A stretch of DNA of 64,000 nucleotides, taken from the NCBI GenBank assembly GCA_009746045.1, contig RPFO01000079.1, positions 1,320,785-1,384,784 of the forward strand. Reading direction: 5' to 3'. A program made the translations under genes and the position numbers. The notes below the pieces were generated by a model that saw nothing but the letters and a program-made list of their open reading frames with translations, did no database searches and had not been told where the DNA came from. Shown in pieces: positions 23,527 to 46,050 of the stretch. The first letter of the stretch is position 1, and every line of letters starts with the position of its first letter. Origin of the DNA: Mesostigma viride. Its lineage: Eukaryota > Streptophyta > Mesostigmatophyceae > Mesostigmatales > Mesostigmataceae.

Positions 23527-23901
23527 GTGGTAACACTTGTCAATTTCCTTTCTTGTTCAGTAGCTTATATTGCTTTAATTGCTGCTTGGCCACTTGGCTG
23601 GCTGTAGCAGATCTGAACAGGGGCCATCATGAGTGAGGGAGCTATTGACCAACGAGGGCGCGGTATCGGCTTTGAGCGGCGCGGCGCTGGGATGGATGGA
23701 CGCGATGGACGCGATGGACACGATGGACGCGGTGGAGGCCAGGCGCTGGGAGACCAGGCTGCGCTGGCAGATGATCAGAGCCAAGGATCTCAGGGCGGTC
23801 AGAACGCGCCAGCTGCAGATCAAGCAGCACCTAGGCGGCCGACCGTGGCTGAGGGGTACGCGGAGCTAAGCCAGTTTCAGTCCATCAAGGACAATTGGCA
23901 G

Positions 23902-24537
23902 CTACTAAACCCTAGGGTGACCCCGTCACACACCCTGCCGTACACCTGGCCGTACTCTACTACCGTGTGACGGATGGCAGTATCATGGGAGACTCTATCT
24001 AGGCCGCGGGTTCCTATCTACAGTGCTTGATGTGGGTCATTTGCACGCAAAGGGTTTTTTGACCCCCACCCTGTCGGATTTCGATTTATATCCTTCCCTC
24101 CCCGTTACCTATTCTTTGCTGGATACTGTTTTGGATCCCTCTTTAAACATCGACGCGGCCATCATTCCCATGATGGACGCGGTCATCGCGGTGCCTCCGA
24201 CCCAGGACGAGATGGTGGGCATGCAGGCGATGCCTCCACCCCAGGACGAGATGGTGGGCGTCGTGGGCATGCAGGGGTCGCCACCGCTCTGTTACGAGCC
24301 GGTGGGCACCGTGGCCCAGGTGGTGCCGCAGCCGGGGGGTGAGGTGACATGGGATGGGTACCAGCCGGACACCGTGTAAACGTAATATTGATTTTAATAA
24401 AAAGACTTTCCCTTCCACGTGTTCATTGTCATGCATGTTTACCCACAACAATGAGTTACCCATGACAGTTTCATGCCAGGTGGGGTTTTACGTATACTGG
24501 CCAGCAAGTAAAAAGGGGTCACCTATGGTTTAGGTAG
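23902..24537. mobile_element. Non-autonomous TIR DNA transposon in element A gag
   Basis: 636 bp absent from the otherwise matching element C, which defines the insertion exactly. The ends are inverted repeats: CTACTAAACCCTAGGGTGAC on the left, and a right end whose reverse complement reads CTACCTAAACCATAGGTGAC. The dinucleotide AG flanks both sides (23900-23901, 24538-24539), a 2-bp duplication. CACTA/EnSpm-like elements have 2-3-bp duplications, but the termini here are CTAC, so the superfamily is uncertain. It contains one small ORF and no transposase. Confidence 0.85.
24023..24379 (+). CDS. Small ORF inside the TIR element, unknown
   Basis: 118 codons, with no ATG exactly at the opening (alternative start). 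It contains a tandem duplication encoding QDEMVGMQ-like units (near 24205 and 24244) and hydrophobic/Pro-rich stretches. An AATAAA lies shortly downstream at about 24397. It may be a captured gene fragment. No family recognised. Confidence 0.3.
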   Translation: MLDVGHLHAKGFLTPTLSDFDLYPSLPVTYSLLDTVLDPSLNIDAAIIPMMDAVIAVPPTQDEMVGMQAMPPPQDEMVGVVGMQGSPPLCYEPVGTVAQVVPQPGGEVTWDGYQPDTV

Positions 24538-25452
24538 AGCCCCGGGACGCGGAGAGGAATGTTAGAGGACATGAACTTGTACACGGACATCTACACCGGT
24601 GACAAGCTTCGCATCCTGGCGTCTAGTGCCTACATAAGGCAGTCGGCGAGGCGGCTGTTCAAGTTCGTCCGGGAGCGACACACAGCGGGGGACACCTGGG
24701 CTGCGTTTATGACGCGACTCAGGGTGTTCCTGAGTGATAAGACTCATAAGAGGACCATAGATGGTTCTCACCTGAAGCAAGAGTACCTGGACTACAAGCC
24801 CATCAAGGGGCAGCTAGTGGTCCACGCCTTTGAAGACTTTGTCAAGCTGAGGGAGGACGCCATGGCCAAAGGGTTCTTCGTTGCAGATCGGATGGCCATG
24901 GGCGACTTTCTCAAGTCGCTGCAGCTGGATCCTGTCACGATGGACAACGTGACCATCCACATGCGCCAAGTCCATGGCTGGGCTGCGATGACAGACCAGC
25001 TGTATGAGTGTTTCAGAGGCAAGTATGTAGGTGGTAAGCGCCCACGTCAAGGGGACGAGGAGGCAGCTGAACCTGCAGTTAAGTCCATGAGGGGATCGCG
25101 CCACGGGGGCCCAGCGTCCTCGAGGGGTCCTGAGACCTCTTCTAGGGGTCGAGGAAGGTCCAGGAGGGGGCGTGGCAGAATGGCTGGACGGGGGACACCT
25201 CCGAAGTCGGGGCATCCACAGTCCCAGTTTGACTTCAAGAGGGTGGGTGGTCCTCCCAAGGCTGGGCCCAGCAGTGGGACCTCACGGGACATCAGTCAGG
25301 TGGAATGTTATTTCTGCCAAGGGAAGGGTCACTTCAGGAATGAGTGTCCCTCGTACCTGAGGCAGGAAGGTCAGAGCAAGCCAGCTCAGGGTGGCAGCAA
25401 GGAGAAGGCTGGTCCATCCCAGGATAAGGGCAAGGGCAAGGCTGCTGATCAT

Positions 25453-25500
25453 TGACTTGAGCCTGCACACATCCCTGAACCCTGGAGGGTGCCCCCAGGG
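25453..25500 (+). promoter_or_regulatory. In-frame gag-pol UGA with downstream hairpin (element A)
   Basis: UGA followed by C (CAT TGA CTT) separates gag from pol with no frame change. The frame downstream is open without an ATG for many codons. A GC-rich hairpin (CCCTGG ... CCAGGG, 25480-25500) begins 24 nt after the stop. The arrangement is identical in element C. Stop-codon readthrough is the inferred use; reinitiation at a later ATG is the alternative. Confidence 0.55.
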
Positions 25501-28500: not shown

Positions 28501-28875
28501 AGTACCCCTGATCTGATTTTGTCTGGGATTGACTTTGCCCAGCCTATCACCTTGGAGATCTTTGTTGACAGTTCCATGGATGCTCGCCAGGTTACCAAGG
28601 TCAGGGGGAGATCTGCTGCTCTGTTTGCTTTTTATCAGAGCAGGGCAAGTTTGTTCAGCTGGTACAGCAGACTGCAGAAGAGGGTCTGTATCAGTTCAGA
28701 TGTGGCAGAATGCAGGGCCATATGCGAGGGGATCCAGTCCAGCTTGTACATAAAGGAGTTAATGCTGGAGCTGGCTTCAGTTACCCCTTGGACCTTGCAG
28801 ATGGAGACGTTGTTGCTAACAGACAGCATGGGTATGGTCCAGTTTGTTCACAAGCAGCTGGCCAGAAGCCGGGAC
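25456..28875 (+). pseudogene. pol: Element A Pol (INT-PR-RT-RH), cut by element B
   Basis: One open frame from the gag UGA to the B insertion at 28875. Integrase: His codons at 25876 and 25891, CKC near 25972, Asp at 26053 and 26212, Glu at 26302, then an SH3-like tail (GQQVVVWKEPSF, WHDGVVTRV). Protease: DTNA at 27052, with VILGQNF about 190 bp downstream. RT: LLDFKRAFL (Asp 27847) and HGDD at about 28129. RNase H follows to the break. It differs from the element C protein by only a handful of residues. The C-terminal piece lies at 44438-44608, beyond the nested elements. Confidence 0.9.
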
Positions 28876-29348
28876 AGTTAGTCTCCATGCTTTGCTGTAG
28901 ACTAAGTCTCAAAGGCATTGTGAATACAACGTATGAATAAGCCTTGTAAACCCACGTTGGTATGTGAATATAAATACCACGTGGGCTATGCAGATAGGGA
29001 TGCTAGTCGAGTCGCATACGTTTCCCTAGATAGGTACTTTGGGTACTGAGGTACGTGACAGATGTCAGTACCCAGTATACGTAGTGTCCTGTCATTGGAC
29101 GGTACCAGAGTATCCTAGATAGGGACCGTACTGCAGCGTGCATTGATTTGTGATCGCACGATGCAGTGACTAGGCAGCTACCTGTCATCGTGCGGCCTCG
29201 GGCCAACGGTCTGCACCCAACGGTCACTGGCGGCGCAGCCGGTGAGAGGAACGTTGATAAAGGGTAAACCTATTTTCTAATGAACCAAGCAATTCATTGC
29301 TCACAGCTTTCAGTGTTCTCAAGCAATATATCCCACCGCAGTCTAACT
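28876..29348 (+). repeat. Element B 5' LTR
   Basis: 473 bp, AGTTAG...CTAACT. Only 18 bp separate it from the ORF1 ATG, and that spacer does not begin with the TGG expected of a tRNA 3'-end primer site. Confidence 0.92.
28969..28976 (+). promoter_or_regulatory. TATA box in element B LTR
   Basis: TATAAATA about 95 bp into the LTR, present in both copies. Confidence 0.5.
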
Positions 29349-29366
29349 TGAATTTTATTTGCTACC

Positions 29367-30395
29367 ATGGCTATCACGAACAAGAATGTCGCTAAGAAGC
29401 TTACCTACAACGAGGATGATGATGGGCAGGATCGGCGGATGCCCAGAGACAACAACAAGAAGCCGGCTGGCGATGCGGCCATTTCCAAGAAAAAGAAAAA
29501 GAACAAAAAGACTCACAATGGTTGCCAGGACGAGGGGACGGCGGCTGCAAAGCCGACCGACCTACCCCCCTCCCCTGCGAGGCCGGAGGCCGAGACGGCT
29601 CCCCCCGGGGAGACCGGCTTACCCTCGACTCCGGCGGCCGCCCCAGCCGCAACCACGGCTGGCGCGGCCATGGCGGCGGAGACCTCGGTGGCAAACCCCA
29701 CTGAGGCTCCACAGTCCGGCCCCACGTTGCCATCTCTTCGGGAGCGTATGCCCCGTCAGACGGCCTCGGTGGCACCGGACGGGACGATTACCTTTCGTCC
29801 CGCCACATCAAACCTTAATGTCCCTTTCGCCCAGGGACATAACCACATTGAGCTAACGTTTGGGCGACCCTCTGCGTCCCTTCTTCGCAAGAAGAAGGAC
29901 ATGGAGAGTATTAAACTCGCACGGGTGGTGCGAAAACCTGTGGAACCCATCGCCGGACAACCAATGTCCGACGATGAGGTATCCGACACTGCCAGTCTCC
30001 CCGATGGGGAGACTGAGATCAATCTTACCCCAGCGCGGCTCCTGGCGGTCGAGCAGGCCGCGCTGGTGGCAAATGAAGAACGCCGAGCGCGGCAGCGGGA
30101 CCGAGAGGTCCGCCGAGAGGCGGCTTTTCGGCTCGCCGCTAAGCGGCAAGAATATGAAGAGGAAGCCGCCCGTCGCCTGGCTACCCACCAGGCGATGGCG
30201 GACGCGTACCGCGAGGCCACCCAGCGGTTACGTGACCTCTTAAAAAATGCTGACTATCCCATGGACTATGCGGACAGTCAAGACCTGGCCGAGCTTGCTC
30301 GGTCAGCACACTTTAAAACCATGTCCTCCATCACCCAAGCCAGGGTCACGGAGGCCATCTTGGCCTGCTATGATCATGGGAGACGCACTCCCTGA
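29367..30395 (+). CDS. Element B ORF1, unknown
   Basis: 342 codons from ATG 29367. The N-terminus is very basic (KKKKKNKK near 29490) and is followed by an Ala/Pro/Thr-rich low-complexity region. The C-terminal half is a long Arg/Glu/Ala-rich predicted coiled coil (ERRARQRDREVRREAAFRL). No enzyme motif. Its 3' end overlaps the next ATG (30376). It occupies the same place as ORF1 of A and C but shares no obvious sequence with it. Possibly a second structural or nucleic-acid-binding protein; function unknown. Confidence 0.65.
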   Translation: MAITNKNVAKKLTYNEDDDGQDRRMPRDNNKKPAGDAAISKKKKKNKKTHNGCQDEGTAAAKPTDLPPSPARPEAETAPPGETGLPSTPAAAPAATTAGAAMAAETSVANPTEAPQSGPTLPSLRERMPRQTASVAPDGTITFRPATSNLNVPFAQGHNHIELTFGRPSASLLRKKKDMESIKLARVVRKPVEPIAGQPMSDDEVSDTASLPDGETEINLTPARLLAVEQAALVANEERRARQRDREVRREAAFRLAAKRQEYEEEAARRLATHQAMADAYREATQRLRDLLKNADYPMDYADSQDLAELARSAHFKTMSSITQARVTEAILACYDHGRRTP

Positions 30396-31590
30396 CATAC
30401 CCGAGGATGAAGCTGCCTTTCAGGCAGCCCTCCGGGAGCATGAGGTACGCAAGGAGATGAAGCGTCTCATGCGGGAGGAGGCCAGGAGGAGAGCAGAGGC
30501 AGACACCCCTGCCCGCCCCTCCACCGATGGGGCTGGACCCAGTGGGGTTACCCGGACAACCCCGGGCTCCCCCAGGGCCACCATGACCCCCCCTCCCCCT
30601 CCCCCACCACCCCAGGTTCGCCCTGTGGGTTGGGGCCCCCTCCCAAACCAGGGGGGGTGGCCAGGACCCCAGGAGGCCCTGGGGGGAGGTGCAGAGGTGC
30701 CACAGGCACCCAACAGGCCTGCTGAAGCCCCCCCAAGGAGCGGGGATGTCCTGGAACAGCTCGCCATTCTCCAGGCCCAGCTGGCCTCGTTGCAAGATCA
30801 GCAGTTAACAGCTAACCAGCTGCAAACTGTCGAGGGCCTGCGCGCCCTGATGTCGCGGTATGAGCGGGGGACCATCAACCTGGACCCCACCCGCCTGCAA
30901 CAAGCAACCGACGGCTTCTTGAGGGCCAACCCCCCTCTCACAGGTGTGTTTAACCCTCATAAAAAGGAATCCAAAATCAATATTGCTGGCTTGCCTGAGG
31001 GTCACACTGTTGAACAAGCTAAGCAATTTGTTTTTGCTTTGGAGTATGGGATGGAAGGTCTTAACCTTAGACATCAGTTTAAGGCTCTCAGGGCCTCCTC
31101 CACATTCCATCAATCATCTCCTGCAATCAGAGCATTGATTCAAACCTATCAGGAACGTACCCTGACACCTGAAGCAGCCATTGAACAGTGGCCTACCTTT
31201 ATCACTGATCTGAAACAGCTAGTGCTTACCAATAACCACATGGAAGCAGTAGAACGTTTCAACTGCATGGCTTGCTGCATATAAGGTGAACAAGAATAAC
31301 CTCTCTGGGGATGCAAAAACATACAGGGTAATGATTGAGAAAGACCTTGAGCTTCTCAAGCTCCAACCAAGGTATCTCATCCACACCTGGCTAACAAAAG
31401 CTAATTTGCAACCTTCTGTCCTGGCTACCCTGCTTACAGGCCTCAAGTCCCTCTGGGACAACTTCAGAGCTGCCATGCTCTATATCGAGGAGGCAGTGGA
31501 CCCCCTGGGTACTGGCAACAACCAGGCCCAGGACCCCAAGGTCCAGGGTGTCCAAGGCCACAAACGCAAGGGGCAGGCCAGCCAGGGGGG
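30376..31590 (+). pseudogene. gag: Element B Gag, N-terminal part, cut by element C
   Basis: ATG 30376 (MGDALPDIPEDE) overlaps the end of ORF1. A charged N-terminus and a Pro-rich stretch lead to a coiled coil (LEQLAILQAQLASLQDQQ) and a capsid-like region (FNPHKKESKINIAGLPEGH, WPTFITDLKQLVLTNNHM). A one-base frame change near 31264 moves the protein to another frame (from 31286: NKNNLSGDAKTYRVMIEKD), which runs into the element C insertion at a G-run. After removal of C and one target copy, the frame continues into the zinc-knuckle region at 39627. Confidence 0.75.
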
Positions 31591-32290
31591 AGTTAACGCC
31601 AAGCGCATTGGCGTGATCCTGATTCGGCATATCTCTGCGATTCCAGCGGCACCGGAACGAGTTCATTCCGACGAGTATCAAGAAAGTTATGGCGTTCCGA
31701 CTTCCCGGTCGCGCGCGAGCGCGAGCCGGCTGTTCTTCTAAGTCGGACGTGAATATTTGCCGACGACATATGGGGTCGACAGTAATTCCTGGGCTGACAG
31801 GAATTAGGTGCTGTACCTACGACGGTATTGGATTAATACGTCGTACGCAGGAAATAGGAACCTTAACCTGTGGTCTGTTGGTACCGCAGGCTTAGTCCTG
31901 GGCTTCTAGGTGCAGATGCAATACTAGTCACTGTGGACTGTGCTCTGTGGTCACTGTGCCTGTATGGCAGACCTACTGTATAGGAGCTGGGCGCTGTACA
32001 GGTAGTGAATACTGTACCGGGGGTGTTATTACTGAGCAGGCCTCCTAGGCTGCTCAGGACTAGCAAGCACAGTGCACAAGTATATAAACAATAGGCCAGT
32101 GCCAAATGGGCATCTCTTGCGAGCCCGCCTCACGTGTTGTGCCTTGACTTGGCAAGCGCGTGTACAAGCCTCACGTGTGTGAGCGCTGTAAACATTATCC
32201 GATTTTAACAAAGCTCCGTTTCCAACCATATCACACATTGCTGCATTGCAACCATATCCTTCACATTGCAGGTGCTAAGAAAGCTTAACT
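31591..32290 (+). repeat. Element C 5' LTR
   Basis: 700 bp. It differs from the A LTRs mainly at the 3' end (GCAGGTGCTAAGAAAGCTTAACT), so A and C are distinguishable subfamilies. Confidence 0.92.
32081..32088 (+). promoter_or_regulatory. TATA box in element C LTR
   Basis: TATATAAA about 210 bp before the LTR end. Confidence 0.6.
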
Positions 32291-32383
32291 CAAATTACAA
32301 CCAGTCTCAGCGGAACGGCCAGGAGGGTCGTTGCCGGTTGCGGTGTGCAGCGTTTACGACGAGAGGAGCTCGTCTGGTGGTGA

Positions 32384-33304
32384 ATGGTGCAGGAGGAACA
32401 GCGGCAGCAGGATTTCCGGTTTCGGCAGTCTGCTGGGGGTTCGATTTCTCCTGAATTACGCCGTGTCGTTCGGGATCTATCTTTATTGCTTGCAGATCGT
32501 CCGCCTGTAAATCGCAGCTTCGTGCAATTCGTCGACGACCAGGTCGAAGATTGGGAGCGAATTCTGCGACACGTACAAACCATCGTCATTCCGGAGCACC
32601 GGAGCATCGACGACCTTGAGCAGGAGCTTCACGGGTTGGTCGGCATCCAGACGGTGATTACTGCAGTAGCAGAGCGAGTGCGGACGGAGTTGGCAGCAAG
32701 GCGAGGCGAGGTTGCGGAAGCAGCTGGCGCAGGGCGACACGAGTTTGTGCCGACAGTAGCGGGCGCGGGAGTACCACGTGCTTTCGCAGGCGGCATCGGC
32801 GACGAGGGTGTTGCAGCGGGTCCAGTTAGGCGTGAACGACGCGGAGCGGAGCACTACAGGCGGCTTGCAGAGGTCGGGGCGACAGCGGAAGCCATCGCCG
32901 GAGGACAGCGCGCGACAAGAGTCGGCAGGTTTCCAGAGCGAGTAAGAGTTCCTTTTCAGGAGCTGCCCCCGCCCCTTCGCGTTCGTGTGACGCGTTGGGA
33001 GGAGTTTGCACCTCTTAGGTACGAGAGTGACCTTGAGGTAGGAGCAGGGGGTGTCGCTGGGCTAGGCGACGAGGCACTCGGCGACCACGAGGTGCCAACG
33101 TACAATCCGCGAGGTGCCAACGACGGGTTGTCACCTGTCTACTTTACCAACGGTGACGATTCAGTCATCGCGGGCCGACAGCGGGTCGACGACGGCGCAG
33201 CAGGTAGCAGGGTACCAGAGCTGATTGTGGTGAGCGACAGCGACGACGACAGCGACAAGGAGAACCAGGACGCGCCTGGGGCCAGCCGTGGTGGTCTTGC
33301 CTGA
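32384..33304 (+). CDS. Element C ORF1, unknown
   Basis: 306 codons from ATG 32384, colinear with element A ORF1. It has the same helical N-terminus and the same acidic tail (SDSDDDSDKENQ). Many nucleotide differences from the A copy leave the frame open, while gag of C carries frame errors. Function unknown. Confidence 0.7.
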   Translation: MVQEEQRQQDFRFRQSAGGSISPELRRVVRDLSLLLADRPPVNRSFVQFVDDQVEDWERILRHVQTIVIPEHRSIDDLEQELHGLVGIQTVITAVAERVRTELAARRGEVAEAAGAGRHEFVPTVAGAGVPRAFAGGIGDEGVAAGPVRRERRGAEHYRRLAEVGATAEAIAGGQRATRVGRFPERVRVPFQELPPPLRVRVTRWEEFAPLRYESDLEVGAGGVAGLGDEALGDHEVPTYNPRGANDGLSPVYFTNGDDSVIAGRQRVDDGAAGSRVPELIVVSDSDDDSDKENQDAPGASRGGLA

Positions 33305-33406
33305 GTGGTAACACTTGGCACTTTCCTTTCTTGTTCAGTAGCTTATATTGCTTTAATTGCTGCTTGGCCACTTGGCTGGCTGTAGCAGATCTGAACAGAG
33401 GCCATC

Positions 33407-34585
33407 ATGGAGGATGGAGCTATCAACCAACAAGCGGGCTTTATGGGCTTTGGACGGCGCGGCGCTGGGACGAGATGGACGCGATGGACGCGGTGGACGC
33501 GATGGACGCGGGGACGGCCAGGCGCTGGGAGACCAGGCTGAGGTGCCAGATAATCAGAGCCAAGGATCTCAGGGCGGGCAGCACGCGCCAGCCGCAGATC
33601 AAGCGGCGCCTAAGCGACCAACCGTTGCTGAGGGGTACGCGGTGCTAGGCCAGTTTCAGTCCATCAAGGACAATTGGCAGCCCCGGGATGCTGAGAGGAT
33701 GTTAGAGGACATGAACTTGTACACGGAGATATACAACGGTGACAAGCTTCGCATCCTGGCGTCTAGTGCCTACATACGGCAGTCGGCGAGGCGGCTGTTC
33801 AAGTTTGTTCGGGAGCGACACGCGGCGGGGGACACCTGGACGGCGTTTATGACGCGACTCAGGTCGTTCCTGAGTGACAAGAGGACCATAGATGGGTCCC
33901 ACCTGAAGCAAGAATACCTGGACTACAAGCCCATCAAGGGGCAACTAGTGGTCCACGCCTTTGAAGACTTCGTCAAGCTGAGGGAGGACGCCATGGCCAA
34001 GGGCTTCTTCGTCGCAGATCGGATGGCCATGGGCGACTTTCTCAAGTCGCTGCAGCTGGATCCGGTCACCATGGATAATGTGACCATCCACATGCGACAG
34101 GTCCATGGCTGGGCAGCCATGACGGATCAGTTGTATGAGTGTTTCAGCGGCAAGTACGTGGGGGTAAGCGCCCTCGTCAGAATGATGAGGAGGCCACTGA
34201 ACCCACGGTTAAGTCCATGAGGGGATCGGGCCACGGGGGCCCAGCGTCCTCGAGAGGGCCTGAGACCTCTTCAAGGGGTCGAGGAAGGTCCAGGAGGGGG
34301 CGTGACAGAAGGGCTGGACGGGGGACCCCGCCGAAGTCGGGACATCCACAGTCCCAGTTTGACTTCAAGAGGGTGGGTGGTCCTCCCAAGGCTGGGCCCA
34401 GCAGTGGGACCTCACGGGACATCAGTCAGGTGGAATGTTATTTCTGCCAGGGGAAGGGTCACTTCAGGAATGAGTGTCCCTCGTACCTGAGGCAGGAAGG
34501 TCAGAGCAAGCCAGCTCAGGGTGGCAGCAAGGACAAGGCTGGTCCATCCCAGGACAAGGGCAAGGGCAAGGCTGCTGATCATTGA
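33407..34585 (+). pseudogene. gag: Element C Gag with two frame changes
   Basis: ATG 33407 (MEDGAINQQAG) corresponds to ATG 23629 in A. An extra base near 33473 and a missing base near 34160, relative to A, split the protein into three frames. The capsid-like region (33700-34150) and the CCHC knuckle (CYFCQGKGHFRNEC, near 34440) are preserved. There is no counterpart of the TIR element found in A. The last frame ends at the UGA 34583-34585, in frame with pol. Confidence 0.85.
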
Positions 34586-34630
34586 CTTGAGCCTGCACAC
34601 ATCCCTGAACCCTGGAGGGTGCCCCCAGGG
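34583..34630 (+). promoter_or_regulatory. In-frame gag-pol UGA with downstream hairpin (element C)
   Basis: The same CAT TGA CTT junction and the same CCCTGG...CCAGGG hairpin (34610-34630) as in element A. Conservation in two copies of different age supports a functional junction rather than a random stop. Confidence 0.55.
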
Positions 34631-37600
34631 GTGTGTAATGAAGCTGCTAGTGACAGCAGTGAGGGGCAGCCCCATGCTCTAGTGAAAGAGCCTATTGGAC
34701 ACGATGGGGCAAGCTTGGTTACCACAGAGAGTATGCCAGCTGTAGCTGCAGTGGTTACTCGCCAACGTGCCCGCCATGGCGGTGCTGAGCCTGAGGTAGG
34801 ACCTGGTGATGTGGACCCAGGTGGATCTCAGAAGCATTCTGACCGTGCAGGACTGGCACAGGATGGTCAGGATGAGGATAGGGCTGGAGACAGTCTGACA
34901 GGCACGACCCTGGTGCCTCCTGTACATAAGGGATCTGTACATACCTTGAGTGCTAATAATGACAATAAAAGGTTTTCTCTCTTGTATGACATTGCCTCAA
35001 GGTTGCATACCATGTTTGGCCATGCAGCTCAGTCTTTGCAAGTTGCTAGACGGCTGGGAGGAAGTGAGTTGTACTCCATCTGCCAACAGGTTGCTCAAGC
35101 TTGCAAGTGCAGGCTAGTTGCTAGAAAGCCCAAGCAGTCTCATGCCAGGACTCCTATTTTGCAGCCAGGCCATGTGCAGGTAGATATTCAGAGAATCAGG
35201 GGTTTGAAGCTGCTGGTGGCAGTGGACAGATATACCAAGTACAAGACCCTAGAGATCCTGCCTGACATGGAGAAGCCTACATTGATTGCTGCTCTGAAGT
35301 TGACAAGGAGCAGGTACCCTGGGTTGGAGTTGTTGCAGTGTGACATTCAGTTTGAGTGCTGTGAGAACCTGCCAGAGTTTCCAGAGTTGCTGATTACACC
35401 CAGGGAGAGCCACGGCCAGCAAGGGGTGGTGGAGAGAGCCATCCAAGAGATCAAGACTGTGCTGCTGGTGGAGAGGATTCCAAGGACGTCATCTGCCATT
35501 GTGACATCTGCATGGCTACGTTCTGTGGAGGACAGGCTGAACCTGAGGACTCCCATGTTCTTTGGTGACATTGCCATCAATCCTCTTATGCTGCATACCA
35601 GGATGCTGCCAGCTGATGCTGAGCAGGCATGGAAGGAGAAGCTAGAGGCCAAGTTCCTCAAGCTGAGGCAGAAAGACAAGGGCTGGAGTGTCCTAGAACC
35701 TAACGTTGGACAACAGGTTGTTGTGTGGAAGGAACCAAGCTTTCCAGGGAAACGTGGCAGCTGGCATGATGGGGTGGTGACCCGAGTAGAAGCCGCTGGC
35801 CATAAGTGCTGGGTGGCCATTGATGGCTCCCAAGCAGTGCACCGTCTGTCCTGGTCAAAGATCCGTCCCCGGGGAGGTAATCAAGGAGACCTCTTCCAGG
35901 TGCCCGCTGGTGTACAAGGCGGGGGTGACGTGGAGCTTCCTGATCAGGGTGCTACAGCTGTATCGAGCCCTCAGGGTGACCCTGGCCCGGCCCCTGGGGT
36001 ACCTTCACATACGGTGGTTGGGCAAGCAGGCGGACAGGCTGCACCTCCGGAACGGCCCGACACCAGGCCTAGGGGTGTGCGTCTATCAGATATTGTACAG
36101 GCTTTGCAAAGAGCCAAGAAGGAGCCTAAGGTGTCCAAGCTTGTCCAGTTGGATGAACCTGAGGTAGCTGCCATGGAGATAGATACCAATGCACAGGTTT
36201 CTGTCATGGGACCTCAGCATACAGGAGAACTGCTGGTCGGAGAACCAAGTTGCCCCTGGGTGTCTGATTTCAGTGGTAGGACGCATCTAAGGGTGTTGGG
36301 AGAGGTTACTGCCCCTGTCATGGGTGTGGATGTGACCTTCCTTGTCCTAGAGGACTATGATGGCCCTGTGATTTTGGGTCAGAATTTTCTGGGCAATCCT
36401 GGGATTTCTATCAGAGCTACAGCTCTGAGAAGAGATGGCTGGGGGATGATTCCCCTAGAAAATTTCAGGACAACATTTCCAGTCAGGTGCAGGGCCAAGC
36501 CGGTCAAGGGTGTAAAATGGGATGAAGGGGAGGTGCCCCCAGCGGCCAGTTTGGTGATTCCAGCTGTGTTGCACCCCAGCAGTATTGGCATAACTCACAG
36601 GAGCCTTGCTGCACACTCTCCTTTGACATATGACCAGCTGGTCCAAGAGATGAGCTCGCCTACTTTGTTTGAGGCTTGGAAGCTCGCCTTCTCCAAGGCA
36701 TTGGAGGAGTGGTTGCAGTTTGAGTGTGCTGCACCAACAGACAGACGTCCCCCAGCATCAAGGAAGCTTGCTTTGAGATTTGTGCTGAAGAGGAAGGTTG
36801 TGGATGAGGTATCAGTGCCCCATGTCAGGCCTGTCCTGAATGAGTATCACGGCACGGGGAGTCTGCCAGGAGAGGAGCTATACACGCCAGGGATGCTACA
36901 CGACACATGGAGAATTTTGCTATGTCTCTACGTGGGGTTGCTGAACAGGGGAGCAGCTATGTCATCAGTGCTGCTGGACTTCAAGAGGGCATTTTTAAAA
37001 TCTGATCCAGAAGTGGCCAGGAGGGTGTGGAAGCAGGATGAGCCTTACTGTGTTGAGGTGCCTGCCATCTGGAAGCTGGAGCTGCATCAACAATTCCTGG
37101 TTATTCTGAAGGGCCTGGAAGGACTCAGGTCGAGCCCAATCATCTGGAGACTCACGCTGCAGGAAGCTCTGATCAGTGAGTGTGGCTTGAGAGTGTCTTC
37201 AGTTGATCCCTGTTTGCTGCTGGCCCAATGGGAGGGTCTGCCAGTGTATGCTAGTTTGCATGGAGATGATCTGCATTTGCTAGCCCCCACGACCTGGCTG
37301 AAGAAGTTTATTCCTGTCATCAGTGGCAAGTTTTCACTGGGCAAGGAGCTGTGGCAGGAGCCCAACAAGCCTGTAGTGTTCTGTGGAATGCAGGCTACCC
37401 TGTTCAGGAGGGACGGGGAGTGGAGTATCAGGCTTCAGGCTGGAGGAGATTATAAACAGACCATTGTGAAGGCCTTGCCAGAGAAGATCACCCAGGCTGC
37501 AGGACCTGAGTTGAGAGGCATGTGGGCCTGGTTTGCCAGCATCTGTGGTCCGTCTTTGATGGTCCATAGCAGAATGCCTGATGAGGTGCTTGAGGATGAG

Positions 37601-38176
37601 AAGCCTCGAGTCATAGCCCGGTTGGTGGAGAGTACCCCTGATCTGATTTTGTCTGGGATTGACTTTGCCCAGCCTATCACCTTGGAGATCTTTGTTGACA
37701 GTTCCATGGATGCTCGCCAGGTTACCAAGGTCAGGGGGAGATCTGCTGCTCTGTTTGCTTTTTATCAGAGCAGGGCAAGTTTGTTCAGCTGGTACAGCAG
37801 ACTGCAGAAGAGGGTCTGTATCAGTTCAGATGTGGCAGAATGCAGGGCCATATGCGAGGGGATCCAGTCCAGCCTGTACATAAAGGAGTTAATGCTGGAG
37901 CTGGCTTCAGTTACCCCTTGGACCTTGCAGATGGAGACGTTGTTGCTAACAGACAGCATGGGTATGGTCCAGTTTGTTCACAAGCAGCTGGCCAGGAGCC
38001 GGGACCTGGATTATTTGTTGCTGAAGGAGTTGGCCAGTTTGGTTGACTTGAAGCATATCCCTGGCGAGGAGAACCCTGCTGATGCATTGACAAAGCTGCC
38101 ACACAAGGCCCCAGCCCAGTACAATGTACTGAGGAAGCTCATGAATGCTGACTGTCAAGTCGGTCTATCTGTCTAA
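34586..38176 (+). CDS. pol: Element C Pol: integrase-protease-RT-RNase H
   Basis: A fully open frame after the gag UGA. Codon starts of key residues in order follow. Integrase zinc module: His 35006 and 35021, Cys 35102 and 35108. Catalytic Asp 35183, Asp 35342 and Glu 35432, with 29 residues between the last two. A GQQVVVWKEPSF...WHDGVV segment near 35708 resembles the SH3-like/GPY-F tail of gypsy integrases. Protease Asp 36182 (MEIDTNAQVSVM) with VILGQNFLG at about 36368. RT Asp 36977 (LLDFKRAFL) and HGDD at 37259-37270. RNase H Asp 37697, Glu 37838, Asp 37952 and the final ENPADALTK. RT and RNase H are copia-like; the protease position is not. No ATG lies near the start, so readthrough of the UGA is likely. 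Confidence 0.9.
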   Translation, partial: LEPAHIPEPWRVPPGVCNEAASDSSEGQPHALVKEPIGHDGASLVTTESMPAVAAVVTRQRARHGGAEPEVGPGDVDPGGSQKHSDRAGLAQDGQDEDRAGDSLTGTTLVPPVHKGSVHTLSANNDNKRFSLLYDIASRLHTMFGHAAQSLQVARRLGGSELYSICQQVAQACKCRLVARKPKQSHARTPILQPGHVQVDIQRIRGLKLLVAVDRYTKYKTLEILPDMEKPTLIAALKLTRSRYPGLELLQCDIQFECCENLPEFPELLITPRESHGQQGVVERAIQEIKTVLLVERIPRTSSAIVTSAWLRSVEDRLNLRTPMFFGDIAINPLMLHTRMLPADAEQAWKEKLEAKFLKLRQKDKGWSVLEPNVGQQVVVWKEPSFPGKRGSWHDGVVTRVEAAGHKCWVAIDGSQAVHRLSWSKIRPRGGNQGDLFQVPAGVQGGGDVELPDQGATAVSSPQGDPGPAPGVPSHTVVGQAGGQAAPPERPDTRPRGVRLSDIVQALQRAKKEPKVSKLVQLDEPEVAAMEIDTNAQVSVMGPQHTGELLVGEPSCPWVSDFSGRTHLRVLGEVTAPVMGVDVTFLVLEDYDGPVILGQNFLGNPGISIRATALRRDGWGMIPLENFRTTFPVRCRAKPVKGVKWDEGEVPPAASLVIPAVLHPSSIGITHRSLAAHSPLTYDQLVQEMSSPTLFEAWKLAFSKALEEWLQFECAAPTDRRPPASRKLALRFVLKRKVVDEVSVPHVRPVLNEYHGTGSLPGEELYTPGMLHDTWRILLCLYVGLLNRGAAMSSVLLDFKRAFLKSDPEVARRVWKQDEPYCVEVPAIWKLELHQQFLVILKGLEGLRSSPIIWRLTLQEALISECGLRVSSVDPCLLLAQWEGLPVYASLHGDDLHLLAPTTWLKKFIPVISGKFSLGKELWQEPNKPVVFCGMQATLFRRDGEWSIRLQAGGDYKQTIVKALPEKITQAAGPELRGMWAWFASICGPSLMVHSRMPDEVLEDEKPRVIARLVESTPDLILSGIDFAQPITLEIFVDSSMDARQVTKVRGRSAALFAFYQSRASLFSWYSRLQKRVCISSDVAECRAICEGIQSSLYIKELMLELASVTPWTLQMETLLLTDSMGMVQFVHKQLARSRDLDYLLLKELASLVDLKHIPGEENPADALTKLPHKAPAQYNVLRKLMNADCQVGLSV

Positions 38177-38924
38177 AAGCTGAGAGCTGGGTGCTTAAGT
38201 CTCTGGATATCAGGCTGGGAGCTTGATTGTACATAATCCTGAGCACACCTTGAGGGGTGAGACATGTCTCTGGTGTGGGAATGTCTGACATTGTCTCTGA
38301 TGGAGAGATGTCTATCTGGGGTTTTCATCTCAGTCTGAGGTTTCCCCAGATCTGTGGTTTGTGGGCGGGGTTCGATTCCCTGGTGCCGTCTTAAGGCGGA
38401 GTTTCACGGACTGGCTGACCCATCCACCATGCTGGTGAGGTGGCGACAGGTCCCCTGATTTTCCACGGTTGGAACGAGTATGGGAGCTTGTGTTTTGCAT
38501 GTGCTTCGCGTAGATGTTGTGTCTGGTTCGATAAGGGGCAGCAGACCGGCGCCGACTCCCGTCTGGGGGTCAGCAATGTTTTCTGATGAGCTGTTGTGGG
38601 TGATCTGTGGGGTTTCGCCTAAGGTCCTGAAGGTTGTACATACTTCTCAAGTTCTTAACTGAACACCTATGGGCTGCCACAGTTGGCCAACCTCTTGTAC
38701 ATGGGTAACACAACGAGCCTCCCGTGAAGGGATAGGGACTCATTGTAATTTGTTTGTGCTCCTGAGCCAGTATGGGTGCTATGTACATATAATAAGGAAT
38801 CCAAGCTGACTGTCATGCCCAGCGGGTTGTGACTTGTAGTCTGGGGAGGATATCCAGTACCCATTGTGTGTGTTTGTATGTAGACTTGTGTGAGCTGCTA
38901 CAGCTCAAGAAAAGAAAGGATTGG
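38177..38924 (+). other. Element C 3' non-coding region
   Basis: About 750 bp between pol and the 3' LTR, matching 44609-45358 in element A. It contains a tRNA T-arm-like hairpin, CGGGG TTCGATT CCCTG (about 38367-38383). It ends in a purine-rich stretch, AAGAAAAGAAAGGATTGG, the probable polypurine tract. Confidence 0.6.
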
Positions 38925-39621
38925 AGTTAACGCCAAGCGCATTGGCGTGATCCTGATTCGGCATATCTCTGCGATTCCAGCGGCACCGGAACGAGTTCAT
39001 TCCGACAAGTATCAAGAAAGTTATGGCGTTCCGACTTCCCGGTCGCGCGCGAGCGCGAGCCGGCTGTTCTTCTAAGTCGGACGTGAATATTTGCCGACGA
39101 CATATGGGGTCGACAGTAATTCCTGGGCTGACAGGAATTAGGTGCTGTACCTACGACGGTATTGGATTAATACGTCGTACGCAGGAAATAGGAACCTTAA
39201 CCTGTGGTCTGTTGGTACCGCAGGCTTAGTCCTGGACTTCTAGGTGCAGATGCAATAGTCACTGTGGACTGTGCTCTGTGGTCACTGTGCCTGTATGGCA
39301 GACCTACTGTATAGGAGCTGGGCGCTGTACAGGTAGTGAATACTGTACCGGGGGTGTTATTACTGAGCAGGCCTCCTAGGCTGCTCAGGACTAGCAAGCA
39401 CAGTGCACAAGTATATAAACAATAGGCCAGTGCCAAATGGGCATCTCTTGCGAGCCCGCCTCACGTGTTGTGCCTTGACTTGGCAAGCGCGTGTACAAGC
39501 CTCACGTGTGTGAGCGCTGTAAACATTATCCGATTTTAACAAAGCTCCGTTTCCAACCATATCACACATTGCTGCATTGCAACCATATCCTTCACATTGC
39601 AGGTGCTAAGAAAGCTTAACT
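38925..39621 (+). repeat. Element C 3' LTR
   Basis: 697 bp, AGTTAAC...GCTTAACT, followed by the G-run target copy. TATATAAA at 39412-39419. Confidence 0.92.
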
Positions 39622-39626
39622 GGGGG

Positions 39627-41337
39627 GGCACCCAAGACCCACAAGTCCTCCCACCAAGGGGGCAGTGGCTCTCAGGGGCGTGGCAACACGTGGCACCGTG
39701 TGCCCCTGCATGGCAACCCCAACAACAACAACAACAACAACAACAACAGGTCCCAGCAGGGCAACAATAACAACAGGTCCCAACAGGGCCAAAACAACAA
39801 CAACAACAGGTCCCAGCAGGGCCAGAACCGGTCCCAGCAGGGAAACAACAACAACAACAACACCAACAACAACCAGCCTGGCAACCCTGGGGGGTCCATA
39901 AGGTGCCTGAGGTGCTTCCAACGAGGGCACGCACGGCACAACTGCCCCAACAACGACTCCCTGGCCAACGGGGTGGATCTCTGCCCGGGCTGCTGGCACG
40001 CACGTCATCCCCTGGGGCCTCCAGGCAGCCGTTGCAACAGGCCTCGCTACCCAAATCAATGTGAGTTCACTCACCTTATGTACTCTGAGGATGATGATCT
40101 CATTACCATTGGGGATGGCAACCAGGGCATAATTGATTTTGAGGCAGCAACCTTACTGTCCTCCCAACACCCTGTTCTGGAACCTTACATAAAAGCACTA
40201 ACCCCTACTGTTGACAACTCCATAGATATCAAGGAGCTTGCTCATCAGCTGCACCTAGCCATGGGTCATGAAACAGTGGCTGAGGAACTGGCCAGACGGC
40301 TGGGGGGTAGTAGCATGGGAAAACAACTCAGGAATGCAGTAAAACTGGCTAGACAACACTGTCAAGAATGTCAGTTCAATAGCCCCAAACCTCAAAAATG
40401 GCATACTGCAACTCCTTCCACCAATAGGGGCATGATAGTGGGGGATGTGATGCACATCAACAAAGATGTCCAACCCTACCTGATCCTAAAAGACTCATGG
40501 TCCAGGTTCACAGTAATGGAACCCCTACCTGGCATGTCTGCAGGGCAGCTACGTGTTGCACTCATGATTGCTTTACCCAGATTCTACCCAGTTGACAGAA
40601 TTTTGCTTGATCAACAATTTTCTTGTCTGACTGACCTGGAAGGGTGTGAAGCAATAGAGATTGCTGGGCTGGAAGATCATGAGGGTCAGGGGGTCATTGA
40701 AAGAACCATCAGATCTGTCAAAACCCTACTAGCCAAAAATCCTTCCAAGGATGCTACTTCAGGGGTCTATTGTGACAGGGCACTCTGGTGTCATGAAATG
40801 TGCACAACCCTAAACATGAGACCTGTCTTGCATGCCACGTGGGGTGAAGTAATCCCAGCAGGCCTGCAGGCAGGTGTATATCCCCCAGAGGTGATAGCAC
40901 TGTACAACACTGCACGTGCACAAACCTCAGCAAAACTGGCAGAAAAAGATAAAACCCATTCCAGGCCAGTATTCCAAAAAGGTGATCAAGTTCTCTATTA
41001 CAAGGAAAACAGCTTTGGTAAGGTTGGAACTTGGCTAGGTCCAGTTACCATCCGTGGATTTACCAAAAACAGCAAGACCGTGGAGGTCAAGCACAATATC
41101 AATGGGAAGCGTCACAGGGTGAGCTGTCATAGAATTAAGAAGTATTATTCTCCCATGGCAGACGTGCCTGGGGAAGAGTCTTTAAGCATGGACTCACTAC
41201 TTCTATCTGGCAACTCCAGCATGCCCAGCAGTAGCTCTGAGCCACCAATTACTGCTGTTGACAGCACCACAGCACCCTCTGTGAACCTTCCACCCTCAGT
41301 GAAGCCAGGCCCACTTCACAACCTGGGGATTGCTTAA
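39627..41337 (+). CDS. gag-int: Element B Gag C-terminus and integrase
   Basis: The frame continues from the gag part before element C. An Asn/Gln-rich tract (39720-39880) is followed by a CCHC knuckle (CLRCFQRGHARHNC, near 39903) and a second Cys cluster (CPGCWHARH...CNRP). Integrase: His 40252 and 40267, Cys 40360 and 40369, Asp 40444, Asp 40609, Glu 40699, again with 29 residues between the second Asp and Glu. The tail has GDQVLYYKENSF and GTWLGPVTI, closely resembling the GPY/F-type module. Stop TAA 41335-41337. No protease motif occurs upstream of the integrase. Confidence 0.85.
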
Positions 41338-41357
41338 CCAGGCACGAGGTAGCTGGG

Positions 41358-43586
41358 TTGGAAGCATTAGCTCAGCCCCAAGGCACCAAATTGTCTGCCA
41401 ACCCTCCCGCTCTGAGGTCAAGATTGGCAGTCGCCTTGCAAGCATTACACAGGTCACATAAGCAACAAGCTGCTGTGGCCGCAGGGTTGGCAAAAGTCTC
41501 AGCTGTGTGCACTAGTCAGGACCCCTGGACCCTGGCAATAGACACTCAGGCACAGGTCAGTGTGATCAGTGCACAAGCCATCCCTGGTCTTGAGATTGCA
41601 CCTTCATTTTGGGCACGGGTGCAGGATTTCTCAGGCCAAAGCTCACTGGATGTAGTGGGACAAGTGATGCTCCCTATACTTGGTATTCAGACACCCTTCC
41701 AGGTGGTGGAGGGGTACTCTGGTAACACCTTGTTGGGGGAACCTTTTGTATCCTATCCTGGGGTGCTTATCTCAGCTAATGAGCTCAGTGTCACAGGGGT
41801 GGGTGCAGTTCCTCTGGACCACTTTAAAATCCCTCTCTCCAGTATTGTCCCTGGTATGGATGCTGTCATCAAGGCAGTCAACACTCAGTATGCACCAGGG
41901 GAGATCCCTGATCTGGACAAGTTAGTGCACAGCCAGTTCCTCCATCCCTCAGCCTTTGGGCTGGGTAAGTGGGACATAGCCATGCACTCACCCCACCAAA
42001 TCTCCCACGTCATACAAGAATGCAAAACACAAAAAGGGTTTACCAAGTGGCTGATGGCCATTGTCCACCAAGCCAGGCAGGAATGGGTCCTGCCCAACCC
42101 CAAAAACCCTCAATACAAACCGCCTGTCACCCCTTCATGGGACGTGCCAGAGGGAGCCAAAAAGCTCAGATTAAAATTTGTTCTCAAACAAAAACCACAA
42201 AAAGTGGGCTCCCCAATCTTCCATGCCAGACCATGTGTCACAGAATTAAAGGGGACCTCCACACTGCCAAAAGGGGAAACATACACACCTGGGCTGCAAC
42301 AAACCTCACTCAGGATCATGCTCTCCCTCTTCCTCCACAACCTCAATGCAGGCCAAGACTATGTCTGCAAAGCCACTGATATTAAAAGGGCCTTCCTCAG
42401 GGGGGACCCAGAAAAGGCTGAATCTGTGTGGAAAGGGAAGGTGTACGTGGTAGACACCCCAGCTGTGTGGAAACCTTATATTGATGAGCCCCACCTTATC
42501 ATCAACATTGGGGTGGAAGGGCTTGTCAGTGCCCCAAAAATTTTCAGAGACTCAGCAGAGGAAGTATTCAAAAAGCTCAAGGCCACGTATGATGACCTGG
42601 ACCCATGCTTTTTTGTTGTACCCACCCCCTCTGGACTGCTGTTCTTTGTGTGGCATGGAGATGACCAACTCATTTGTGGGCCTAGAGCTGAGGTGGAAAC
42701 CTTTATTCAGCAGGTCCAGGAATCATATGAGATTGGCAAACAGGTGGAATTGAGCACAACCCCCATCCAGTTCTGTGGCATCATGTTGCAGCTGCATAGG
42801 CAGCCAGATCAGTGGGTCTGCTCTCTCTCCCCTCCTGCAGAATATATCCAAGATTGTCTAGATCTGCTGCAGGACAACTACCTCCCCTTACATATGTGTG
42901 CCACTGTTCAGGGCAAACTGGGGTGGTGGTCAGCCATCTGTGGGGCTCCCTTAGCTGTCATCAGCAGGGTCACCCATGATGTTCTAGTCAAGATCAAATG
43001 CAGTCACATCAGGAAGTTGGTCAATGACTGTCCCCCCCTCATCCTCCATGGCCTGAATCTGATGGAAGACATCCACATCCAATGTGTCATGGACAGCTCC
43101 ATGGAGAGCAGAACAATCAATCAGATGGGGGCACGGGAATCAGGGCTGTTTTTTCTCACCAACAGGTCAGATTACATGTCCCTCACTTCCTGGTACAGCA
43201 GGCTACACCGCAGAAAACCTGGCAGCAGCAACTCAGCTGAATGTCGTGCTGTGGTGTCTGCTGCATTGCATGCTCGTTCCCTGCAGCACATGCTCACCTG
43301 GCTACAAACCCAGGCAGGCAGCACATGCAATGTCATCTCACATCTCTACACTGACAGCTTTTCTGTGATCAGTTTTCTAACCAAGAAATCTGTTTCTGCT
43401 GCTGTCCACACTGACCTGGATTGGGTGATCCTCAAACAGGAGGCAACCTACTTTTCCAGCTGGACTCATGTGGATGATGAGGACAACCCAGCAGACGCTC
43501 TAACGAAGCTGCGGGATGCTGCTGGCCAACAGTACCAGCTCCTCTTTCAGAACATGAACCCCTATGATATCAGAGTCAGTGTTTGA
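41358..43586 (+). CDS. pol: Element B protease-RT-RNase H
   Basis: 742 codons in the -1 frame relative to the gag-integrase frame. The open frame extends upstream across the stop, so the two frames overlap. The position given is the first alternative start. Protease: DTQA at 41541 (AIDTQAQVSVI), with a degenerate flap-side motif. RT: Asp 42378 (ATDIKRAFLRGDPE) and HGDD at 42654-42665. RNase H: Asp 43092 (CVMDSSMES), Glu 43239 (SAECRAVV), DNPADALTKL at the end. Expression would need a -1 frameshift or reinitiation, unless a single indel separated the frames. Confidence 0.88.
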   Translation: MEALAQPQGTKLSANPPALRSRLAVALQALHRSHKQQAAVAAGLAKVSAVCTSQDPWTLAIDTQAQVSVISAQAIPGLEIAPSFWARVQDFSGQSSLDVVGQVMLPILGIQTPFQVVEGYSGNTLLGEPFVSYPGVLISANELSVTGVGAVPLDHFKIPLSSIVPGMDAVIKAVNTQYAPGEIPDLDKLVHSQFLHPSAFGLGKWDIAMHSPHQISHVIQECKTQKGFTKWLMAIVHQARQEWVLPNPKNPQYKPPVTPSWDVPEGAKKLRLKFVLKQKPQKVGSPIFHARPCVTELKGTSTLPKGETYTPGLQQTSLRIMLSLFLHNLNAGQDYVCKATDIKRAFLRGDPEKAESVWKGKVYVVDTPAVWKPYIDEPHLIINIGVEGLVSAPKIFRDSAEEVFKKLKATYDDLDPCFFVVPTPSGLLFFVWHGDDQLICGPRAEVETFIQQVQESYEIGKQVELSTTPIQFCGIMLQLHRQPDQWVCSLSPPAEYIQDCLDLLQDNYLPLHMCATVQGKLGWWSAICGAPLAVISRVTHDVLVKIKCSHIRKLVNDCPPLILHGLNLMEDIHIQCVMDSSMESRTINQMGARESGLFFLTNRSDYMSLTSWYSRLHRRKPGSSNSAECRAVVSAALHARSLQHMLTWLQTQAGSTCNVISHLYTDSFSVISFLTKKSVSAAVHTDLDWVILKQEATYFSSWTHVDDEDNPADALTKLRDAAGQQYQLLFQNMNPYDIRVSV

Positions 43587-43959
43587 ATAAATGACTGGCC
43601 ATAGCACAGTACACAACCACCACACCCCTTACCACAGCGATAGCTGCTGGGCGCCATAAAATTCAACACATTCGTTGTGGGGTGTGAGTGCTGGCTAGGT
43701 CAGATTTGTATCCATTTGCAGCTTGAGGACACAAGCTTTGTATCCATTTACTTAATGTGTGCTTCAGTACCTGGCCAAACCAGCCAGCTGTGTACACCTT
43801 ATTTAATGTGCAATATAACACCTGGCCAGAACAGCCAGCTGTAACCAACCTGGCTCAACCAGCCATGTCTCTTTTGTACCCCTAATCAACTTAAAAACAA
43901 TAACAATAATGTTGGGGGTGCAGACCTGCATTAAGAAATAAATAATAAAACAATACTGG
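43587..43959 (+). other. Element B 3' non-coding region
   Basis: 373 bp without coding potential. A partial internal duplication (CTGGCCA..CCAGCTGT) occurs two to three times. It ends TTAAGAAATAAATAATAAAACAATACTGG, the likely polypurine-type primer site. Confidence 0.55.
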
Positions 43960-44432
43960 AGTTAGTCTCCATGCTTTGCTGTAGACTAAGTCTCAAAGGC
44001 ATTGTGAATACAACGTATGAATAAGCCTTGTAAACCCACGTTGGTATGTGAATATAAATACCACGTGGGCTATGCAGATAGGGATGCTAGTCGAGTCGCA
44101 TACGTTTCCCTAGATAGGTACTTTGGGTACTGAGGTACGTGACAGATGTCAGTACCCAGTATACGTAGTGTCCTGTCATTGGACGGTACTAGAGTATCCT
44201 AGATAGGGACCGTACTGCAGCGTGCATTGATTTGTGATCGCACGATGCAGTGACTAGGCAGCTACCTGTCATCGTGCGGCCTCGGGCCAACGGTCTGCAC
44301 CCAACGGTCACTGGCGGCGCAGCCGGTGAGAGGAACGTTGATAAAGGGTAAACCTATTTTCTAATGAACCAAGCAATTCATTGCTCACAGCTTTCAGTGT
44401 TCTCAAGCAATATATCCCACCGCAGTCTAACT
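43960..44432 (+). repeat. Element B 3' LTR
   Basis: 473 bp. One substitution from the 5' LTR (GGTACTAGAG versus GGTACCAGAG). Followed by GGGAC. Confidence 0.93.
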
Positions 44433-44437
44433 GGGAC

Positions 44438-44608
44438 CTGGATTATTTGTTGCTGAAGGAGTTGGCCAGTTTGGTTGACTTGAAGCATATCCCTGGCGAG
44501 GAGAACCCTGCTGATGCATTGACCAAGCTGCCACACAAGGCCCCAGCCCAGTACAATGTACTGAGGAAGCTCATGAATGCTGACTGTCAAGTCGGTCTAT
44601 CTGTCTAA
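44438..44608 (+). pseudogene. pol: Element A Pol, C-terminal remainder
   Basis: Continues the RNase H of element A after the nested insertion (LDYLLLKELASLVDLKH, ENPADALTKLPHK). It ends at the same stop as element C pol. Confidence 0.92.
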
Positions 44609-45358
44609 AAGCTGAGAGCTGGGTGCTTAAGTCTCTGGTTATCAGGCTGGGAGCTTGATTGTACATAATCCTGAGCACACCTTGAGGGGTGAGACATGTC
44701 TCTGGTGTGGGAATGTCTGACATTGTCTCTAATGGAGAGATGTCTATCTGGGGTTTTCATCTCAGTCTGAGGTTTCCCCAGATCTGTGGTTTGTGGGCGG
44801 GGTTCGATTCCCTGGTGCCGTCTTAAGGCGGAGTTTCACGGACTGGCTGACCCATCCACCATGCTGGTGAGGTGGCGACAGGTCCCCTGATTTTCCACGG
44901 TTGGAATGAGTATAGGAGCTTGTGTTTTGCATGTGCTTCGCGTAGATGTTGTGTCTGGTTCGATAAGGGGCAGCAGACCGGCGCCGACTCCCGTCTGGGG
45001 GTCAGCAATGTTTTCTGATGAGCTGTTGTGGGTGATCTGTGGGGTTTCGCCTAAGGTCCTGCTGAAGGTTGTACATACTTCTCAAGTTCTTCACTGAACA
45101 CCTATGGGCTGCCACAGTTGGCCAACCTCTTGTACATGGGTAACACAACGAGCCTCCCGGGAAGGGATAGGGACTCATTGTAATTTGTTTGTGCTCCTGA
45201 ACCAGTATGGGTGCTATGTACATATAATAAGGAATCCAAGCTGACTGTCATGCCCAGTGGGTTGTGACTTGTAGTCGGGGAGGATGTCCAGTACCCATTG
45301 TGTGTGTTTGTATGTAGACTTGTGTGAGCTGCTACAGCTCAAGAAAAGAAAGGATTGG
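44609..45358 (+). other. Element A 3' non-coding region
   Basis: Near-identical to 38177-38924, including the T-arm-like hairpin and the purine-rich end before the LTR. Confidence 0.6.
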
Positions 45359-46050
45359 GGTTAACGCCAAGCGCATTGGCGTGATCCTGATTCGGCATAT
45401 CTCTGCGATTCCAGCGGCACCGGAACGAGGTCATTCCGACAAGTATCAAGAAAGTTATGGCGTTCCGACTTCCCGGTCGCGCGCGAGCGCGAGCCGGCTG
45501 TTCTTCTAAGTCGGACGTGAATATTTGCCGACGACATATGGGGTCGACAGTAATTCCTGGGCTGACAGGAATTAGGTGCTGAACCTACGACGGTATTGGA
45601 TTAATACGTCGTACGCAGGAAATAGGAACCTTAACCTGTGGTCTGTTGGTACCGCAGGCTTAGTCCTGGACTTCTAGGTGCAGATGCAATAGTCACTGTG
45701 GACTGTGCTCTGTGGTCACTGTACCTGTATAGCAGACCTACTGTATAGGAACTGGGCGCTGTACAGGTAGTGAATACTGTACCGGGGGTGTTATTACTGA
45801 GCAGGCCTCCTAGGCTGCTCAGGACTAGCAAGCACAGTGCACAAGTATATAAAGAATAGGCCAGTGCCAATTGGGCATCTCTTGCGAGCCCGCCTCACGT
45901 GTGTTGCCTTGACTTGGCAAACTCGTGTACAAGCCTCAAGTGTGTGAGCGCTGTAACATTATCCAATTTTAACAAAGCTCCGTTCCAACCACATTCACAC
46001 ATTGCTGCATTGCAACCATATCCTATACATTGCGTTTAAAAACGTTAACT
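45359..46050 (+). repeat. Element A 3' LTR
   Basis: 692 bp, GGTTAAC...CGTTAACT, followed by the ATGCT target copy at 46051-46055. TATATAAA at 45846-45853. Confidence 0.92.

Follow-up and report, generated by a model that had tools for sequence, protein, structure and literature searches.

LTR-element families are defined in part by their gene order, and a nest of retrotransposons in the streptophyte alga Mesostigma viride raises the question of whether an LTR lineage can carry its protease (PR) between integrase (INT) and reverse transcriptase (RT). The window analysed here is a stretch of 64,000 nucleotides of contig RPFO01000079.1 (assembly GCA_009746045.1, forward strand, 1,320,785 to 1,384,784). 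An initial annotation, made from the sequence alone, had proposed the order integrase-protease-RT-RNase H (RH) for its elements and had taken them for a distinct lineage. Three LTR elements are nested in the window, with C inserted in the gag of B and B in the RNase H of A. Their features are as follows (positions are those of the window):

21815..46050, + strand: element A, an LTR retrotransposon split by the insertion of B (LTRs 21815-22506 and about 45359-46050; target-site duplication ATGCT)
25456..28875, + strand: pol ORF of A, INT-PR-RT-part of RH, resuming at 44433 past B
28876..44432, + strand: element B, gag split by C (LTRs 28876-29348 and 43960-44432; ends AGTTAG...CTAACT; target-site duplication GGGAC)
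29352..31590, + strand: gag region of B, broken in the window copy and a single 882-codon frame in copy L009
31591..39621, + strand: element C (LTRs 31591-32290 and 38925-39621; ends AGTTAA...TTAACT; target-site duplication GGGGG)
32384..34220, + strand: ORFs of C 5' of pol, presumed gag region (306 and 287 aa)
34586..38176, + strand: pol ORF of C, INT-PR-RT-RH in a single frame (1196 aa)
34976..35896, + strand: integrase of C (H-x4-H, Cys pair, D-D-E; the tail resembles GPY/F or SH3, as a resemblance only)
36155..36460, + strand: retropepsin-like domain of C (DTNAQVSVM ... VILGQNFL)
36740..37440, + strand: reverse transcriptase of C, limits approximate (DFKRAFL ... HGDD at 37259)
37650..38100, + strand: RNase H of C, copia-type, limits approximate (NPADALTK end, 38072)
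39610..41337, + strand: ORF of B with CCHC knuckle (about 39900) and integrase (40204-41160)
41514..41819, + strand: retropepsin-like domain of B (IDTQAQVSVI ... LLGEPFV)
41262..43586, + strand: ORF of B with PR-RT-RH (774 aa; HGDD at 42654; NPADALTK at 43485)

A and C belong to the same family (99.4% amino acid identity over 1140 aa), and B is diverged from both, with identities of 28% in INT (307 aa) and 33% in PR-RT-RH (720 aa). A third family, D, is marked by the M. viride predicted protein P0002, which matches the assembly at 100% over 629/629 residues. In addition, the ENA protein P0001, 72% identical to C and possibly not independent of this host, carries INT-PR-RT-RH in a single chain. 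The order INT, retropepsin-like domain, RT and RNase H was found in C, A, B, D and P0001. It is thus shared by strongly diverged families, as had been proposed, with the motifs of C lying where the initial annotation had placed them (the aspartate of DTNA is codon 533 at nt 36182, ILG is codon 596 and HGDD lies at 37259). If the middle segment is PR, the Ty1/copia order PR-INT-RT-RH occurs in none of them. When P0001 was scanned with Pfam at E<=10, just three families came up, all under their cut-offs: rve at 214-265, gag-asp_proteas at 557-628 and RVT_2 at 751-923. Gag was assigned from its position and the CCHC knuckle. Upstream of pol, the 306- and 287-aa ORFs of C had no Pfam match and a CCHC knuckle was seen by eye near 34430; the knuckle of B matched zf-CCHC_3 under the cut-off (E 0.0045).

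Two LTRs and a target-site duplication were found in elements A, B and C of the window and in copies L009-L012, L046 and L047, and the LTR pairs of the window are 99.8% (B) and 99.3% (C) identical. All three families have LTR ends of the form AGTT...AACT and 5-bp target-site duplications (A, B and C in the window, four B copies, and D copies L046 and L047). Canonical LTR ends are TG...CA, and ends of the AGTT type are found in certain insect gypsy elements. Inspection by eye of the sequence that follows the 5' LTR of elements A, B and C gave no obvious tRNA primer-binding site. Elsewhere in the window, a Ty3/gypsy-type element at 8141-17556 has the order RT, RNase H, INT (RVT_1 E 5.8e-35, rve 2.1e-8; PR by eye) and is flanked by 703-bp direct repeats that are 99.9% identical. 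Long simple-sequence arrays lie at 49900-51500 and 60400-61900, the latter translating as (WMDG)n or (SIHP)n depending on the frame, and a minus-strand ORF (51828-52583) resembles part of a hAT-type transposase by eye.

The order might in principle be an artefact of a chimeric assembly, a nested insertion or a single rearranged copy, and the window is indeed a nest of three elements. Copies were counted in the M. viride assembly of 440 Mb and 2243 contigs. B has at least 58 near-identical copies, including that of the window, at about 100% protein identity, and D at least 70, all 70 scored matches being at about 100% and 65 of them showing a 797-aa frame. Of six B copies fetched (L009-L014), four (L009-L012) had both LTRs, with pairs 99.4-100% identical and a 5-bp duplication in each; L013 and L014 had no LTR pair in the fetched stretch. 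The LTR pairs of five D copies (L045-L049) are 96.3-99.4% identical, so the D copies are older than those of B. Copy L010 sits inside an element matching the gypsy element of the window (10169-12404), with the duplication CACAC. An artefact is refuted by these many dispersed near-identical copies, by the clean LTRs and target-site duplications in those that were read and by the presence of three families in one genome, and we give it practically no credence. The claim that no local rearrangement is involved therefore stands: with this many copies of B and D, the origin lies at the level of the lineage, and the segment order is real, repeated and lineage-wide.

The reading frames are less uniform than the order. 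The statement that pol occupies one frame holds for C (1196 aa). It does not hold for the B copy in the window, in which INT and PR-RT-RH lie in separate overlapping ORFs (39610-41337 and 41262-43586), implying a frame break between INT and PR. This junction is open in 40 of the 58 B copies, with open frames of 946-1767 aa that reach 1225 aa or more in 37 cases, and the remaining 18 have the same 774-aa frame as the window. Its sequence was inspected directly in L001 (the window copy), L002, L004 and L009-L014. In copy L009, CCHC, INT, PR, RT and RH share 1381 codons that overlap the 882-codon gag frame. D copy L045 carries INT-PR-RT-RH in one 1224-codon frame. Copy L047 has a 934-codon frame for Gag-CCHC-INT, overlapped by one of 797 codons for PR-RT-RH. 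The junction is likewise split over two frames in L046, L048 and L049, where the upstream frame is broken. It should be noted that the shared frame of Gag, CCHC and INT in L047 (1573-4374), apart from PR-RT-RH, would mean an integrase made at Gag level, if real. Because the frame relation of Gag, INT and PR-RT-RH differs between copies of both B and D, the mode of expression is uncertain. The differences may reflect length variation in short C-runs, either real or introduced by assembly, and we do not propose programmed frameshifting.

To which known group the lineage is related was judged from RT and RNase H. Alignment by hhalign of this region from four lineage members with two copia proteins gave 98.1% (E 1.3e-13, 456 columns), and 93.8% with one of the two alone, compared with 0.6% for the gypsy RT of the window; a search of a protein database with the lineage profile also returned two copia proteins (E 1.8e-4 and 3.6e-3). 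The Pfam profile RVT_2 scored 24.0 bits on B (E 3.4e-5 to 4.8e-5) against a cut-off of 31.6 bits and 15.5 bits on P0001, also under the cut-off, and was not listed on the RT of C or D, whereas canonical copia elements of the same genome reached 148-178 bits in 150 scored places. Strong hhalign values together with low RVT_2 scores indicate an RT-RH that is copia-related but remote. A Ty3/gypsy assignment does not fit an RT without an RVT_1 match and an INT that comes first rather than last. The YxDD box reads HGDD in C, A, B, D and P0001 (28129, 37259 and 42654 in the window; 5745 in L047), and HGDD instead of Y/F-x-DD is unusual for an active reverse transcriptase.

As a control, one copia element out of the 150 scored places (L050) was analysed with the same Pfam scan in the 1.2 kb upstream of its RVT_2 place. 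It showed Pol_BBD at 19-95 (E 1.4e-14), gag_pre-integrs at 120-166, rve at 201-300 (E 2.3e-9) and SH3_retrovirus at 361-400; by eye, it has the copia LLS motif and DSAA at the catalytic triplet. PR thus precedes INT and INT precedes RT in this element, which means that the alga carries both gene orders.

The proposed order presupposes a protease between INT and RT. All four families (C, B, D and P0001) carry [IV]DT[NQ]A[QS]VS[VI] followed by [IL]LG[QE]xF, with exactly 63 residues from the catalytic Asp to ILG, and an ILG motif about 60 residues after the Asp is a feature of retropepsins. The 89-aa segment aligns without gaps at 29-62% pairwise identity among the four families, compared with 36-77% for RT, 34-80% for RNase H, 29-57% for INT and 28-70% for the PR-RT linker. 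Its conservation is therefore similar to that of INT, slightly below that of RT and not above that of the adjoining linker. What this shows is that the entire stretch is maintained; with a linker conserved to about the same degree, PR does not stand out.

This equal conservation would also suit a different reading, in which the segment is part of a conserved linker joining INT and RT, its motifs arose by chance, and the protease is lacking or hidden elsewhere. Such a reading is further favoured by the results of profile and structure searches, in which no PR profile match reached a curated cut-off, a PDB profile search with the segment gave no match and two AlphaFold models gave no usable fold (pLDDT 40.8 and 38.2). 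Under the Pfam cut-off, gag-asp_proteas was listed on C (E 0.2, behind the unrelated DUF6898 at 0.16) and on P0001 (E 0.086), and nothing was listed on the PR of B or D. On P0001, however, the match is in register over 78 of the 92 positions (14-91 of the profile), and the identical spacing of both motifs in four families speaks against chance. A relaxed aspartyl-protease pattern plus ILG, which was adjusted after the sequences were seen, matched once per protein, at this segment, and in 1, 2, 0 and 1 of 3000 shuffles. Moreover, no alternative protease motif has emerged upstream of INT: in line with the initial annotation, motif scans of C, A and B gave no [LIVM]D[ST]xA there (the one further occurrence in B falls within RT), and the fuller pattern was absent from the gag of B, the pol of B before INT and the gag-INT of D. 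Pol_BBD, the copia PR profile with the LLS motif, was not listed at E<=10 on this lineage, which has ILG or LLG instead. We therefore regard the chance-motif linker as quite improbable and the middle segment as likely to be a retropepsin.

Its activity is a separate matter. Retropepsins almost always have Gly as the third residue of D-T-G, and here it is replaced in all four families (DTNA or DTQA), so that the D-[ST]-G triplet of clan AA is absent; this is the main doubt about PR activity. The domain could thus be a retropepsin fold that has lost catalysis (DTG to DT[NQ]), with processing by a host protease or no need for processing, as the N or Q at the third residue of the triplet in every family might suggest. 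On the other hand, all four families retain the ILG loop as well as the Asp, Thr and Ala, and the DSAA of the canonical copia element in the same genome indicates that an element without that Gly can persist, which counts against loss of catalysis. On balance, a catalytically dead domain appears unlikely. Activity of the segment is less probable than its being a retropepsin. The word protease used initially is partly supported, by motifs, spacing and sub-threshold profile matches, and it is weakened by the missed Pfam cut-offs, the low model confidence and the replaced catalytic Gly.

For the integrase, a three-sequence profile searched against PDB gave 53 sequences at E<=10 (best E 0.016), of which 52 were named integrase or Pol polyprotein and one was a mitoribosomal protein, and the catalytic positions were aligned in the two alignments shown. 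The four-family alignment contains H-x4-H and a Cys pair followed by D, D and E. In family D the third catalytic Glu is replaced by Asp (copies L047 and L045), in a family of at least 70 near-identical copies. Pfam listed Agenet (0.0057, on the tail), rve (0.056, sub-threshold) and TTD (0.15) on the INT of C and nothing, rve included, on that of B, so the Pfam check suggested at the outset for both PR and INT gave sub-threshold support on C and none on B. The INT tail (GTWLGPV and similar) resembles the GPY/F module, as a resemblance only, and SH3_retrovirus was not listed for C or B, though it was present in the control copia. By hhalign, INT reached 0.1% to one copia INT and 0.2% to one gypsy INT.

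Taken together, these results point to a copia-related LTR lineage in M. viride with the arrangement Gag-INT-PR-RT-RH, in which INT directly follows Gag/nucleocapsid and a retropepsin-like protease precedes RT-RH, a reading we consider probable. The order, the LTRs, the target-site duplications, the copy number and the shared PR motifs and spacing are observed, and the frame change, the processing and the PR activity are what we infer. The element RNA would be translated into Gag and, if the ribosome changes frame at the Gag/INT region or beyond it, into a Gag-INT-PR-RT-RH polyprotein. PR would dimerise in the assembled particle and cut at both of its flanks, freeing INT N-terminally and RT-RH C-terminally, after which RT would copy the RNA and INT would insert the cDNA with a 5-bp target duplication at the AGTT...AACT LTR ends.

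Compared with known systems, the lineage resembles Ty1/copia in its alignable RT and RNase H, the H-x4-H at the start of INT (by eye) and the NPADxxTK-like RNase H end, and differs in having PR after INT, a PR ending in ILG and the RT box HGDD. With Ty3/gypsy, it shares a PR directly before RT-RH and an ILG-type PR end (VILGIPWL in the gypsy element of the window, by eye), whereas its INT is first rather than last and its RT is copia-like without an RVT_1 match. According to the sections of Llorens 2009 (PMC2774666) on these motifs, copia PR carries LLS with very few exceptions and the others ILG, and copia INT is without GPY/F. The same survey ties the copia/gypsy split to an int rearrangement and gives, in its account of int positions, five states: int follows pr (all known copia and Gmr1), follows rh, is truncated and reversed (REM1), has been lost, or lies upstream of gag (PVCV). 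In the LTR lineage Gmr1, too, INT has shifted its place compared with related elements, but it lies between PR and RT, and the RT is of gypsy type (partial texts of PMC2774666 and PMC8220671); in the present lineage INT comes before PR, and RT resembles that of copia. Petunia vein clearing virus likewise has INT in an unusual upstream position, but upstream of gag (PMC2774666, same account) rather than between gag and PR.

INT-PR-RT-RH is none of the five int positions in that account (Llorens 2009, PMC2774666), which agrees with the initial statement that no LTR group is known to have PR between INT and RT, and no description of this order was found in the literature searched. In the methods text of Neumann 2019 (PMC6317226), GAG-PROT-INT-RT-RH was the order of the 5410 plant copia elements kept, and all elements with an unexpected domain order were removed as probably mispredicted; this lineage may therefore have been overlooked elsewhere. 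For M. viride itself, 60339 LTR retroelements have been reported, and the words copia and gypsy are absent from the main text as available (Liang 2019, PMC6947507).

The proposal of a distinct lineage is upheld as regards a lineage-level origin and several families, and is qualified by the Ty1/copia-type RT-RH. Because that region is recognisably copia-type, the lineage seems to be a copia offshoot, rearranged or chimeric, and not one that falls outside all known groups. We also see some possibility, short of an even chance, that Gag-INT-PR-RT-RH, the ILG-type PR, the GPY/F-like INT tail, the HGDD RT and the AGTT...AACT ends mark a separate deep LTR lineage, either a mosaic that joins the RT-RH of copia to PR and INT from outside copia, or a relict form midway between the gene orders of copia and gypsy.

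What is new is the INT-PR-RT-RH arrangement within LTR retrotransposons with copia-type RT-RH. If true, a multi-family lineage with PR between INT and RT would be a third arrangement able to transpose and spread, and would bear on the assembly history of LTR elements and on the regulation of a protease in the middle of the polyprotein.
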